DNA from: Aureisphaera galaxeae
GTDB lineage: Bacteria > Bacteroidota > Bacteroidia > Flavobacteriales > Flavobacteriaceae
DNA: 64,000 bases
Direction: 5' to 3'
Assembly: GCF_028561275.1 (NCBI RefSeq)
Contig: NZ_JAQQTF010000004.1
Location: forward strand, 744,001 to 808,000
The stretch's first letter is position 1; every line of letters begins with the position of its first letter. Made by a program: the position numbers and the translations under genes. The notes beneath the pieces are model-generated. The model searched no databases, was not told the origin of the DNA, and saw only the letters and a program-made list of their open reading frames with translations. Below are positions 27,474-32,473 of this stretch, in pieces.

Positions 27474-27510
27474 AAAGTCCAATCACTAAAGTGGTTGGAC
27501 TTTTTCTTTT
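27474..27510 (+). terminator. Terminator of the tRNA unit
   Basis: AAAGTCCAATCAC pairs with GTGGTTGGACTTT (13 bp, one G-T) around a four-base loop, followed by TTCTTTT. Confidence 0.88.
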
Positions 27511-27514
27511 GCCG

Positions 27515-27832
27515 AAGCTTGAAGCGTAGCTTCAGAAGCGAAGGCAAAATGAAAAAGGACACACAGGGTACCTGTGTTGGACTTTCTTGAGCACCGTTCC
27601 CCTTTCAGGATCAACGCAGTTAATCCGATATTCCCAAAGCTTGAAGCGAAGGCAAAATGAAAAAGGACACACAGGGTACCTGTGTTGGACTTTCTTGAGC
27701 ACCGTTCCCCTTTCAGGATCAACGCAGTTAATCCGATATTCCCAAAGCTTGAAGCGAAGGCAAAATGAAAAAGGACACACAGGGTACCTGTGTTGGACTT
27801 TCTTGAGCACCGTTCCCTTTTCAGGATCAACG
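27515..27832. repeat. Tandem repeat, 108-bp unit, about 2.8 copies
   Basis: Copy 1 is 27515-27636 (108 bp plus a 14-base insertion TAGCTTCAGAAGCG), copy 2 is 27637-27744, and copy 3 is 27745-27832 (truncated, with one C-to-T change near 27818). Each unit starts AAGCTTGAAGCG and contains the stem ACACAGG-GTA-CCTGTGT followed by TTGGACTTTCTT on the plus strand and GTCCTTTTT on the minus strand, so each is a possible two-way terminator. The TTGGACTTT phrase is shared with the tRNA-Pro terminator just upstream. The array ends four bases before the stop codon of the DUF4386 paralogue. The unit is a multiple of three and is open in several frames, but those ORFs look like by-products. Confidence 0.9.
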
Positions 27833-27835
27833 GAT

Positions 27836-28486
27836 TTAGTTCTCTTTTTGCTTTATCCCAGCAAACAAAAACCAAATAATAAAAAGCAATTCCCCAAAGG
27901 TTAACAATTCAGAGTAGAAAAGAAAGTCACCTGTGCTAGCGAAAAGAAGATCTCCGAAAGAAGCCAACAAATAACCAAGCCCTCCAATATACAGGAAATA
28001 CATAACTACCTTGGGAAAAAGACCGGATGTATAAGCAAGCTTTCCTAGAGGGAATAACCATAACCCCCAGAAAATCATAGAGATGGACATTCCATTGTTA
28101 TAGGTGTTAAGGCTGTGCTTAATAAGGTGTTCTTGTCCCGACAGGGATAGGATTCCTATTTGGTTCACTTCGTTATACATGGAAATAGGAACACTCACCA
28201 GTGCAAAAACCACCATTAAGGTAGCTAGGCCTTTGTCGGTTTTATCGAACAACTTGTATAAAAGGAGAGGGATGACAATAAATAGAAGCTGTACAATTAA
28301 CCTACCCACAATGCCAATTCTAAAAAGCCATTCGTTGGAAAAAATGTTAGCAGCTGTTTTTTCAGTATTTCCACTTTCAATAATAACAGACGGGATATAC
28401 ATAATACTGAACATTCCAATAAGAACCCATAAAAGGTATAGTATTCGAAGTCTGTTGGCAATCTGGTTTTGGTTGTAGTCCTTCAT
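27836..28486 (-). CDS. DUF4386-family membrane protein (second paralogue)
   Basis: The 216-residue protein has six hydrophobic segments. ANRLRILYLLWVLIGMFSIMY, SNEWLFRIGIVGRLIVQLLF and VSVPISMYNEVNQIG follow the DUF4386 pattern, and it is clearly related to the gene at 24708-25394 though divergent. The tandem repeat abuts its stop codon and may supply its terminator. Function unknown. Confidence 0.82.
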   Translation of the reverse strand: MKDYNQNQIANRLRILYLLWVLIGMFSIMYIPSVIIESGNTEKTAANIFSNEWLFRIGIVGRLIVQLLFIVIPLLLYKLFDKTDKGLATLMVVFALVSVPISMYNEVNQIGILSLSGQEHLIKHSLNTYNNGMSISMIFWGLWLFPLGKLAYTSGLFPKVVMYFLYIGGLGYLLASFGDLLFASTGDFLFYSELLTFGELLFIIWFLFAGIKQKEN

Positions 28487-29900: not shown

Positions 29901-30016
29901 TTTACAAGGATACTTTCATATTAGCTTCTATGAAGATATAACTAATTAATCTATTGTAAGTTAATTTATGACTTTCAGAACAAAGCGAAGGAATGATATT
30001 CTATAATTTAGTTTTT

Positions 30017-30062
30017 GTTTAACAAAATAAATTAATAGTTAAACAAAATAGTTTTAACTTTG
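30017..30062 (+). promoter_or_regulatory. Direct-repeat operator and promoter of folE
   Basis: GTTTAACAAAAT (30017-30028) and GTTAAACAAAAT (30038-30049) are direct repeats separated by nine bases, a 21-bp period (two helical turns). Five bases later TAACTTTG (30055-30062) matches the -7 consensus, so a bound protein would cover the -33 region. The same 12-9-12 element occurs at 32389-32421 in front of the Lacal_2735 unit. Confidence 0.8.
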
Positions 30063-30112
30063 TAAGGCTTCGTTATGTGTAGTTTATAATTGAAGTGCAA
30101 ATAAGACAATAC

Positions 30113-30814
30113 ATGAAACACTCAGAAACCTTATTGAATACTTTAATAAATGGTAACGGACTCAGTACCCTAACAGACGATGAAATAGGGGATGATCATA
30201 TTTCCACTGGTCTCGAGACACCCATGCGGGCCGATGCATTCGATATTTCAGATGTCGAAAAGAAAGAAAAGATTGCTCATTTGTTTTCTCAGATTATGAA
30301 TGTTATGGGATTGGACCTTACTGACGATTCCCTAAAAGGAACCCCCAATAGGGTGGCCAAGATGTATATAGACGAAATATTCTCTGGCCTTAATCCCGCC
30401 AATAAGCCAAAGATTGCCCTTTTTGATAATAAATACCAGTACAATCAAATGCTGGTGGAGAAGGATATTACCTTTTATTCTAACTGCGAGCATCATTTCG
30501 TTCCCATCATCGGAAAGGCACATGTAGCTTACATTTCTTCCGGAAAAGTAATTGGGCTTTCCAAACTCAATAGGATTGTTCAGTACTATGCCAAACGTCC
30601 GCAAGTGCAAGAGCGTTTAACCAATCAGATAGCCAAGGAGCTGCAAACCACCTTAGAAACGGATAATGTGGCGGTTATCATCGATGCTAAGCATTTATGC
30701 GTTTCGTCTAGAGGGGTTAAAGATGATACTTCGGCTACGGTAACATCCTTTTATGGAGGGGTGTTCAACAAACCACACAAGATTGCCGAACTTCAGAACT
30801 ATCTGAATTCCTAA
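30113..30814 (+). CDS. folE: GTP cyclohydrolase I
   Basis: It converts GTP to 7,8-dihydroneopterin triphosphate, the entry to folate and other pterins. Zinc ligands are visible in SNCEHHFVP and AKHLCVSSRG. Further signatures are GLSKLNRIVQYYAKRPQVQE and GVKDDTSATVTSFYGG. The 233-residue form begins at the ATG 30113; a GTG at 30095 is possible. The N-terminal ~55 residues are poorly conserved and acidic. Its stop codon abuts that of the CIA30 gene on the other strand. The operator shared with the opposing unit suggests that this copy is regulated rather than housekeeping, and a second folE may exist elsewhere. Confidence 0.96.
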   Translation: MKHSETLLNTLINGNGLSTLTDDEIGDDHISTGLETPMRADAFDISDVEKKEKIAHLFSQIMNVMGLDLTDDSLKGTPNRVAKMYIDEIFSGLNPANKPKIALFDNKYQYNQMLVEKDITFYSNCEHHFVPIIGKAHVAYISSGKVIGLSKLNRIVQYYAKRPQVQERLTNQIAKELQTTLETDNVAVIIDAKHLCVSSRGVKDDTSATVTSFYGGVFNKPHKIAELQNYLNS

Positions 30815-31348
30815 TTATTTTAGTGTAATACGGTCTATCTCCAATCGGAAATTTTCGTTTTTCTTATTGCCGATAAGAATCGCAATTTCCTCAATATAGT
30901 CCCCAGGGAAATTGGACATATTGAGTTTTCTGCCACGAAAGGCAGGATACAGGGTGGCCAATGGAATTTCGATGGTTTCCCAGCTACCCGAGGTTTTAAA
31001 ATAACCGATATAAGAGTAGTAATCAGATCTACTGCGCTTCACACGAAATTGATACGATTTACCATCGCCTTTCACCCTCAAGGCTACTTTCGATAACTCT
31101 TGGGTGTTGATGGTTTCGAAGCGATAACGTGCTGATGAGAATCCGCCATTGTTCTCTAAGGAAACTTCACCAGTGAAGATACCGTGGCCTTCCTTACTTA
31201 TATAGAGCTTCCCGTCCGATCTTCCACCCATGACCACATCGTCTACCACCCGCCAGTTGGTAAGTGCCTGGTCTTGCTTAAAATCGAATAGCATCATAGA
31301 GTTGGATTGTAGGTAGTTAAAAAGTAAAGTGAAAAGTAGGATAAGCAT
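30815..31348 (-). CDS. CIA30-family protein
   Basis: The 177-residue protein matches the CIA30 (complex I intermediate-associated protein 30) domain: NWRVVDDVVMGGRSDGK, NNGGFSSARYRFE, LRVKGDGKSYQFRV, SGSWETIEIPLATLYPAFRG. The first ~16 residues are hydrophobic and could be a weak signal, though a later start at MMLFDF is possible. In bacteria the domain is found in small proteins of unknown role and need not concern complex I. It follows the flavin reductase gene by 18 bases and is the last gene of that unit. Confidence 0.88.
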   Translation of the reverse strand: MLILLFTLLFNYLQSNSMMLFDFKQDQALTNWRVVDDVVMGGRSDGKLYISKEGHGIFTGEVSLENNGGFSSARYRFETINTQELSKVALRVKGDGKSYQFRVKRSRSDYYSYIGYFKTSGSWETIEIPLATLYPAFRGRKLNMSNFPGDYIEEIAILIGNKKNENFRLEIDRITLK

Positions 31349-31366
31349 AATTCAAAGGTTCAAGGG

Positions 31367-31996
31367 TTACGAGAAGCTCGGAACTTCGGGGACACGTGCA
31401 TAGGGGAATTTCGCAATTTTGGTCAGGGAGTAGTAACTATTAAGGCCAGAGATACCGATGCCACCGCTTTGTTCCAAATCAATTTCGTTTTCGGAATAAG
31501 CTTCATCGGGGATGACAAGGTGGACTATCTGCCCTACAACCATTAAGGTTCCATTCGATTTAATACTAATGAATTCCCGAAGGCTCAATCCCATTTTAAA
31601 GGGACTCTCCTTAACGAATGGAGCGTAAAACCCTTCCCGGAATTCTTCCGTGAGATTGCAACGCTCAAATTCTGAAATCCCAGCATCGAATTTCGCCGAG
31701 GTATAATGCGCGTTTTCAATAAAATCCGGGTGGATGTGATTGATGGTATAGAACCCGGTTTTCTGAATATTCTCAAAAGTATGCCTAGGTACTTCTCCCG
31801 TAGGCCGCAGAACGAACCCTAATAAAGCGGGATTGCTTCCCAAATGCACCACAGAGCTGAAAATGGCAAGATTGGTTTGCCCATTAGGAGCTATGGTGCC
31901 AATAAGATTGGCCGGTTTTATTCCCGTAACCGAATTGATCAACTTTAAACGGGTAACCCGATCCAGATTTTTAATGTCTTCGTGTGTATATTCCAT
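31367..31996 (-). CDS. Flavin reductase-like FMN-binding protein
   Basis: The 209 residues form a split-barrel flavin reductase domain: IGTIAPNGQTNLAIFSSVVHLGSNPALLGFV is the FMN-binding start, followed by HTFENIQKTGFYTINH and a C-terminal GLNSYYSL. It probably binds FMN and uses NAD(P)H to deliver reduced flavin to a partner, which is not evident. It lies 23 bases after the Lacal_2735-type gene and 18 bases before the CIA30 gene, so all three are likely one transcript. Confidence 0.92.
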   Translation of the reverse strand: MEYTHEDIKNLDRVTRLKLINSVTGIKPANLIGTIAPNGQTNLAIFSSVVHLGSNPALLGFVLRPTGEVPRHTFENIQKTGFYTINHIHPDFIENAHYTSAKFDAGISEFERCNLTEEFREGFYAPFVKESPFKMGLSLREFISIKSNGTLMVVGQIVHLVIPDEAYSENEIDLEQSGGIGISGLNSYYSLTKIAKFPYARVPEVPSFS

Positions 31997-32019
31997 GGTT
32001 TGTTGAATTCAACCGGAAA

Positions 32020-32184
32020 TCAATCCAGTTGATCAATTTGTTTTGCAATTTCTTCCGCTTCAAAAACCTTCTGATCGCTGAGTTTTCTGTTGGAAGTAGA
32101 AAGCTTATGGGCTTCCTTCAATAAACTCTCGTATTGAGCTTGTAGTTTTTCCTTTTCTGTTTTCTTTTTGAATATTCCGAACAT
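32020..32184 (-). CDS. Lacal_2735-type small protein
   Basis: A 54-residue ORF starts MFGIFKKKTEKEKLQAQYES and continues LLKEAHKLSTSNRKLSDQKV to a TGA at 32020. This highly charged helical protein matches the flavobacterial Lacal_2735 family as I recall it. It has no signal or membrane segment and is probably a single long helix or coiled coil. It is the first gene of the unit with flavin reductase and CIA30, downstream of the direct-repeat operator at 32389-32421. Function unknown. Confidence 0.88.
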   Translation of the reverse strand: MFGIFKKKTEKEKLQAQYESLLKEAHKLSTSNRKLSDQKVFEAEEIAKQIDQLD

Positions 32185-32242
32185 GGCTTTGGGTTTATAT
32201 GTTTTTTGTCGTTAAAGAATTTATTTTCAACCTTAGAAATAT

Positions 32243-32325
32243 CGAAACGCACTCCTAAGAATGCGTTTCGAACAAACCAACTATTCTAACGGATTAACAA
32301 AATAGACTGTTTGAATAGTTGTTCG
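32243..32325 (-). promoter_or_regulatory. Two adjacent inverted repeats in the leader of the Lacal_2735 unit
   Basis: CGAAACGCA (32243-32251) and TGCGTTTCG (32262-32270) form a perfect 9-bp stem. CAACTATTC (32278-32286) and GAATAGTTG (32313-32321) form another, and CGAAC/GTTCG (32269-32273, 32321-32325) can extend it while competing with the first stem. Neither is followed by a T-run on the coding strand, so these are not ordinary terminators. They lie between the operator and the first ATG and would be in the 5' leader. Confidence 0.6.
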
Positions 32326-32388
32326 TAGCGCAGTTGAAGGGTGAATAGCAGCTTCAATTACGCATACCGTAAAAATAAGCAAAAAAAC

Positions 32389-32421
32389 ATTTTGTTCAAC
32401 AATTTTGTGATTTTGTTAAAC
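32389..32421 (-). promoter_or_regulatory. Direct-repeat operator in front of the Lacal_2735 / flavin reductase / CIA30 unit
   Basis: On the minus strand GTTTAACAAAAT (32421-32410) and GTTGAACAAAAT (32400-32389) are direct repeats with a nine-base spacer, matching the element before folE in sequence, order and spacing. A -7 box is less clear; TATTTTTA lies about 12 bases further on. The rest of the 289-base gap to the aminotransferase-like gene holds the leader hairpins and no gene. Confidence 0.75.
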
Positions 32422-32473
32422 ATTATTATGATTGATTTTCAGCGAAATAGCAATTGTTTCCCGAAGATCGGCA

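Follow-up and report, generated by a model that had tools for sequence, protein, structure and literature searches.

The window analysed here is a 64,000-nucleotide stretch of the Aureisphaera galaxeae genome (contig NZ_JAQQTF010000004.1, positions 744,001 to 808,000). It carries folE and, facing it, a unit of three genes (32184-30815) encoding a Lacal_2735 family protein, a flavin reductase-like protein, and a CIA30-family protein (Table 1). The two units are convergent, and, as described in an earlier note made from the DNA letters, their stop codons abut (folE, 30814; CIA30, 30815). The same note had placed an identical element before each unit. A pattern search of the window found both elements as exact matches exactly where they had been placed, GTTTAACAAAAT-N9-GTTAAACAAAAT before folE (30017-30049, plus strand) and GTTTAACAAAAT-N9-GTTGAACAAAAT before the Lacal_2735 gene (32421-32389, minus strand). 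With a position weight matrix (PWM) built without the folE site, the folE element scored 40.7 of a maximum of 48 bits and the element of the Lacal_2735 unit scored 34.8 bits. An additional half-site-like stretch, GATTAACAAAATA, was seen in the leader preceding Lacal_2735 (32293-32305, plus strand).

Table 1. Features of the two convergent units and their promoter regions in the window
Feature	Position	Strand	Basis
Putative operator before folE: TGTTTAAC (30016-30023), N14, GTTAAACA (30038-30045), then AAAT	30016..30049	+	Exact pattern, arms checked
Probable -7 box TAACTTTG, folE promoter	30055..30062	+	Sequence; 24.5 bp from dyad centre
folE, GTP cyclohydrolase I	30113..30814	+	PF01227, 1.9e-61
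CIA30-family protein, last gene of facing unit	30815..31348	-	PF08547, 1.4e-40
Flavin reductase-like protein, second gene of facing unit	31367..31996	-	PF01613, 1e-14
Lacal_2735 family protein (DUF6435, 54 aa), first gene of facing unit	32020..32184	-	PF20027, 6.8e-10; NF033487, 6e-25; coordinates checked
Possible -7 box TATTTTTA, Lacal_2735 unit, 1 mismatch to TAnnTTTG	32370..32377	-	Deduced from sequence; 30.5 bp from dyad centre
Putative operator before Lacal_2735-flavin reductase-CIA30 unit: TGTTTAAC, N14, GTTGAACA	32389..32422	-	Exact pattern, arms checked

The element is rare. The 4.59-Mb genome contains two exact matches, both in the window, and three further places with three mismatches; the reversed control gave 0. 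Within the window, the pattern at up to three mismatches was confined to the two elements, and 100 dinucleotide shuffles of the window gave no match. These results show that the two elements are not chance occurrences.

No regulator gene had been noticed in the window, and no MerR gene was seen there in the present analysis. The genome contains two MerR_1 matches, both on other contigs. One of them, encoded on contig C11, is a 303-amino-acid (aa) protein with a MerR helix-turn-helix domain (PF13411, 2.2e-13) and a B12-binding region (PF02607, 1.7e-9), whose best sequence matches among solved structures are CarH (Protein Data Bank entries 3whp and 5c8d). Directly behind the gene for this CarH-like protein, here called carH, come crtI, crtB, a gene resembling crtZ, and one for lycopene cyclase. 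The name crtI was assigned by eye and by Amino_oxidase (PF01593), crtB by PF00494, and lycopene cyclase by PF18916; the crtZ-like gene was named by eye and has no Pfam match. The protein retains Trp131, Glu141, and the axial His, with the lower axial His motif D/ExHxxG present as EIHEIG, and the genome encodes a cob(I)alamin adenosyltransferase. A plasmid search with the protein returned 15 records, all below 60% identity, and the ten shown were distant.

A variant of the element with one core mismatch lies between carH and crtI in A. galaxeae, and a weaker copy lies upstream of carH. The 30 best-scoring loci for the CarH-like protein (L250-L279; this genome and 29 others) served as a set chosen independently of the motif. 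The start of crtI lies less than 400 bp behind carH in all 30 loci. The carH-crtI gap contained TGTTTAA-N16-TTAAACA with at most one mismatch in 29 of 30 loci, and shuffles contained it with at most two mismatches in 5 of 600 cases. Upstream of carH, the pattern was found with at most two mismatches in 22 of 30 loci and in 2 of 600 shuffles. When 20 spacings were compared, N16 gave these 29 and 22 loci and the other spacings gave 0 to 6. These results show that the element has a fixed geometry and lies at crtI and carH promoters. The presence of the same element at the crtI promoter beside a CarH-like gene, here and in relatives, supports the shared regulator that the note had proposed.

The element had been read as a 12-9-12 direct repeat with a 21-bp period. 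The sequence and the period were confirmed. A direct repeat is one possible reading of the element, and an inverted repeat, TGTTTAAC-N14-GTTAAACA, fits better; its cores are near-palindromic and are spaced 21 bp from each other. At the 30 loci, the inverted model gave a mean of 0.47 mismatches behind carH, compared with 0.63 and 1.53 for two direct models, and 2.07 before carH, compared with 2.63 and 3.23. The margin behind carH is small because the cores are near-palindromic, the GTTNAAC core being itself a palindrome. In three columns left free by the search pattern, T preceded the left core at 108 of 112 sites, T stood at the left-core N at 98, and A stood at the right-core N at 105. Eight loci (L013, L048, L074, L076, L077, L102, L103, and L116) had been omitted from this count beforehand; they were a duplicate (L013), the site of the window itself, and six loci at which no facing gene was plausible. 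No conserved TnnACA was found in the spacer at the 112 sites. With exact cores and 15 spacings allowed, the period was 21 bp in 98, 22 bp in 9, and another length in 6 of the 113 matches listed in related genomes (counted by eye); the control gave 7. The motif was also seen as tandem repeats with a 21-bp unit at L175, L182, and G276:C225, where no relation to a promoter was apparent. A literature search with limited coverage of subscription journals found no description of the operator.

The 11-mer pair was then sought with at most one mismatch in 396 genomes of the family. It was present in 164 genomes (A. galaxeae included) and in 20 genomes with the reversed control (counted by eye). carH was found in 365 of the 396 genomes; 11 of the 31 genomes without it were assigned by their absence from the carH match table. 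The motif occurred in 162 of the 365 genomes with carH versus 2 of the 31 without it (Fisher P = 8.5e-6, uncorrected for relatedness of the genomes). The latter rate is close to that of the control, and one of these two cases is a tandem repeat.

Facing genes were counted by homology within 300 bp of 120 distinct sites. This set was a selection that comprised 110 of the places listed among the matches of the 396-genome scan, 9 loci from another search, and the window's folE site, with the duplicate L013 dropped. The genes were crtI (44 sites), fasciclin (16), SRPBCC (15), TetR_C_23 (12), mnmA (12), and DUF2911 (9) and, less often, a 142-aa family (4), carH (2), Lacal_2735 (2), folE (2, one being the window's), and CIA30 (1; immediately downstream of the site, locus L018). 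Representatives of fasciclin and TetR_C_23 were assigned by Pfam, and SRPBCC, mnmA, and DUF2911 were named by eye; L019 was labelled crtI by hand, and the "crtI" of L130 is a distant oxidoreductase (26% identity). Single sites face genes for a photolyase (L049), a rhodopsin and a beta-carotene dioxygenase (L078), a glutathione peroxidase (L130), and a fatty-acid-desaturase-type protein read as CrtW (L056). A narrow light set (crt, carH, folE, Lacal_2735, CIA30, photolyase, and rhodopsin genes) is faced by 55 of the 120 sites, an outcome in keeping with a light regulon, and a further 31 sites face only families of the photolyase cluster (SRPBCC, TetR, 142-aa, SDR, and glutathione peroxidase). 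Flavin reductase homologs (40 and 42% identity) lie directly downstream of a site in L146 and L209, and others lie within photolyase clusters. In the named genome collection, folE lies directly downstream of a site in a Taibaiella metagenome-assembled genome (L211). In L141, a record titled Candidatus Kuenenia, a folE gene 78% identical to the flavobacterial one lies near a site; this contig is probably a misbinned Bacteroidota contig. The L078 site (2143-2174) has the rhodopsin gene on one side and a gene for beta-carotene 15,15'-dioxygenase on the other, and rhodopsin phototrophy may be under the control of the same element in this one relative.

The position of the element relative to the promoter was determined with TAnnTTTG, which we take to be the Bacteroidota-type -7 promoter box; distances are given along the coding strand, starting at the dyad centre, and the boxes are predictions. 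The box starts 0.5 bp from the centre, inside the site, in 42 of 44 crtI and 8 of 16 fasciclin promoters. It starts just behind the site, at 20.5 to 25.5 bp, in 10 of 15 SRPBCC promoters (24.5 to 25.5 bp in these), 4 of 4 142-aa, 4 of 12 TetR, and 2 of 2 Lacal_2735 promoters of relatives. The predicted folE box lies at 24.5 bp, so that the site would cover the -33 region, as had been claimed. Both placements would hinder RNA polymerase, which points to a repressor. The genes mnmA and DUF2911 often lie on the other side of the site. They were discounted as targets for want of a -7 box at a fixed place (TAnnTTTG in 0 of 12 and 0 of 9 tested stretches, respectively).

It is hardly credible that the element is simply a part of the promoter, or a chance pattern, with no regulator behind it. 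It is AT-rich, its arm contains TTTG as Bacteroidota promoter boxes do, it overlaps the -7 box at crtI, and some exact matches in the genome collection lie in unrelated phyla or in tandem arrays. However, the 21-bp spacing stays constant while the box lies at either 0.5 or 20.5 to 25.5 bp, only two exact matches exist in 4.59 Mb, and the gene families behind the sites recur. The period counts with free spacing and the spacing test at the carH loci also speak against this explanation.

The window folE is the paralog found inside the photolyase clusters of several relatives. In nine relatives, a folE gene shares at least 76% identity with it, and six of these loci were read. In four of the six (L334, L335, L337, and L341), folE, flavin reductase, and photolyase genes lie in one cluster that also contains TetR, ABC1 kinase, TIGR03643-like, and SDR genes, which supports the regulon of pterin and flavin chemistry suggested earlier. 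Lacal_2735 belongs to the cluster in L334, L335, and L341 and is absent from that of L337. In G155, of the same genus, Lacal_2735 and flavin reductase genes lie with photolyase-like genes (L338), apart from a PTPS gene and folE that have a three-mismatch site upstream (L339). L336 contains TetR, an ABC1-like gene, flavin reductase, folE, and SDR, with no photolyase within the stretch read. Photolyase assignments have Pfam support in L335, L337, and L341, as do ABC1 and TspO in L334; the other cluster genes were named by eye. Sites with at most three mismatches lie upstream of TetR in L334, L336, and L341 and upstream of the 142-aa gene heading the folE half in L334, L335, and L341; the L337 cluster has no site at this threshold.

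A. galaxeae has a separate photolyase cluster, with TetR, ABC1, DUF2867, photolyase, DPRP, photolyase, a 142-aa-like gene, TIGR03643, and SDR. A PWM scan covered about 164 kb of distinct sequence of this genome, in which loci L008-L011 had been included for their motif or regulator. Matches of at least 8 bits were found before folE, the Lacal_2735 unit, crtI, the TetR-ABC1-photolyase cluster (17.1 bits, about 30 bp before TetR), and an SRPBCC-photolyase pair (20.4 bits, about 22 bp before it); the reversed sequence gave 0. Elsewhere in the window, downstream of two tRNA genes, open reading frame translations suggest about three tandem copies of a unit of about 100 bp (27486-27875).

The element might instead be read by TetR_C_23, the protein at the head of the photolyase cluster, which would control both its own gene and the other light genes. 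This is very unlikely, even though 12 sites lie upstream of TetR_C_23 genes and the A. galaxeae gene is preceded by a weak site. TetR_C_23 occurs in 302 of the 396 genomes, but the six that have it and lack carH (G059, G174, G212, G264, G329, and G412) are all motif-free. Conversely, TetR_C_23 is missing from 20 listed genomes, 5 of which (G019, G028, G043, G150, and G072) have both the motif and carH, and 29 of the 30 loci selected independently of the motif carry the element between carH and crtI.

One regulator probably uses both elements as its operators. The likeliest candidate is the CarH/LitR-like MerR protein of A. galaxeae itself, which would act by repression, release in light, and joint induction of the two units. 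It is very likely that the two facing gene groups belong to one light-protection gene set. The link to MerR regulators of the CarH/LitR type drawn in the earlier note gains support from the element at carH and crtI promoters and upstream of photolyase-cluster genes. Relief of repression by light is suggested by the gene set, by CarH biology, and by the light-induced crt genes of Chryseobacterium. In the proposed mechanism, a dimer or larger oligomer of the CarH-like protein would bind TGTTTAAC-N14-GTTAAACA, with two helical turns between the core centres. The bound protein would cover the -7 or -33 region of the promoter and keep transcription off in the dark. Light would break adenosylcobalamin (AdoCbl) in the B12 domain, or a related signal would act, and the repressor would be released. 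folE and the Lacal_2735-flavin reductase-CIA30 unit would then rise together with the carotenoid genes and photolyases. Photolyases and cryptochromes would plausibly gain reduced flavin and pterin cofactors in this way.

Several observations weigh against this interpretation. The predicted box of the Lacal_2735 unit is imperfect and, at 30.5 bp, lies farther from the dyad centre than the boxes of relatives. The photolyase-cluster sites of A. galaxeae are weak, and the 17.1-bit one has a 22-bp rather than a 21-bp look. A 34.0-bit match (L011 3932-3964, G000:C18) is flanked by htpG- and fabH-like genes, which have no known link to light, and a 25.6-bit match (L010 5797-5829, G000:C14) overlaps the end of an arsC-like gene with no obvious light gene; the latter site was also seen to lie about 60 bp upstream of a TonB-receptor-like gene. 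A relaxed search of the genome with GTTNAAC-N14-GTTNAAC and one mismatch gave 17 places versus 26 for the reversed control. Since there was no excess, no further targets in this genome are predicted from the relaxed search; the exactness and position of the element, and not the relaxed core, carry the signal. Among the 365 genomes with carH, 203 have no match at one mismatch; the three genomes of the same genus in the family scan lack the motif at this threshold, and weaker sites at crtI are common among the 30 CarH-protein loci. Of the 120 sites, 34 lie outside the light set (16 facing only fasciclin and 18 facing others), and the light-set gene lists were drawn up after the matches had been seen. 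In the protein, Wx9EH is incomplete: Trp and Glu are kept, and His142 is replaced by Arg in A. galaxeae and three other genomes of the genus. A published light signature consists of GxxW, EH, GxxH, and GxxxP (PMC11796333); the protein has GLLW and GTNIP, with ER in place of EH and EEIH in place of GxxH. Its score with the NCBIfam CarH model NF052513 is 64.1 bits against a cut-off of 400. Because it departs from the strict CarH signatures, and its operator from the 11-bp tandem rule, the protein was filed as a CarH-like variant and not as a member of CarH.

These substitutions bear on the signal. The CarH-like protein might read the element in response not to light via AdoCbl but to singlet oxygen, the redox state, or a partner photoreceptor. 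The Arg at position 142 and the missing Gly of GxxH favour this possibility, and a B12-independent CarA and a LOV-coupled class II LitR are precedents. It is nevertheless unlikely, given that Trp131, Glu141, and the axial His are kept, that 64 of the 88 homologs in which the motif could be read have His142 (95 homologs, 7 set aside), and that the adenosyltransferase gene is present.

In the genome collection, the element lies directly before an extracytoplasmic function (ECF) sigma factor gene in 20 of the 118 exact-match loci listed. Among these 20 matches, within stretches of at most 8 kb, 6 loci also hold carH and 10 hold crtI or crtB; Pfam confirmed the sigma domains in L343 and in four of the 20. 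The sigma loci include L139, L150, L165, L173, L180, and L188, and the sigma gene often heads a crt operon. None of the 13 listed sigma loci with shown titles is titled Flavobacteriaceae; the titles include Chitinophagia, Saprospiraceae, Cytophagaceae, Cyclobacteriaceae, Crocinitomicaceae, and unclassified Flavobacteriales. This placement suggests a sigma relay in those groups and direct wiring in Flavobacteriaceae. Direct wiring would mean that every target (crt, photolyase cluster, folE, Lacal_2735-flavin reductase, and even rhodopsin) has the operator at its own promoter; in a relay, the operator would lie before an ECF sigma gene heading a crt operon, and the sigma factor may pass on the signal. 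The chances seem evenly balanced that a CarH-like light regulon with its own inverted-repeat operator of 21-bp period extends across the phylum Bacteroidota, wired directly in Flavobacteriaceae and through ECF sigma factors elsewhere, with the His142-to-Arg sensor of this genus perhaps working without classical AdoCbl chemistry. In sunlit waters, flavobacteria rank among the main heterotrophs, and to our knowledge, little is known of their light sensing outside rhodopsins. A recognisable operator outlines the regulon, makes a single regulator testable, and ties little-known families (Lacal_2735, TIGR03643, the 142-aa family, and SRPBCC) to photoprotection. If the proposed reading is true, CarH-type repressors can use a different DNA arrangement.

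The system was also compared with known ones. The CarH systems of Thermus thermophilus, Bacillus megaterium, and Myxococcales are alike in domain order, in the crt-adjacent gene, and in an operator over promoter boxes. Known CarH operators are tandem 11-bp direct repeats, nnnnTnnACAn (PMC9304148). TnnACA also occurs inside the cores of the present element, but this element consists of two inverted arms 21 bp apart, has no conserved middle repeat, and lacks the tandem 11-bp direct repeats. The protein differs from CarH in having Arg for His142 and Gln for His132. Class II LitR of Pseudomonas (PplR/PmlR2) works with a LOV protein and controls phrB, cryB, folE, and an SDR gene through palindromic hexamers, TGTACA-N12-TGTACA, one pair of which lies over the -35 region (PMC9758184). 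The regulon content and the palindromic pairs resemble those of the present system, whereas the LitR operator has a different sequence and a period of 18 bp. MliR of Bizionia (PMC9478572) was considered for comparison and dropped, as CarH, cobalamin, and photolyase do not appear in the available text. In Chryseobacterium lacus, likewise a flavobacterium with light-induced crt genes, crtI, crtB, crtZ, and lycopene cyclase rise in light; its authors did not find car/lit genes and left the regulator open (PMC7064467). In Nonlabens spongiae, for which the enzymes have been described, a MerR gene heads the myxol cluster (PMC11855829). This marine flavobacterium thus shares with A. galaxeae a gene of the MerR family placed ahead of crt genes.

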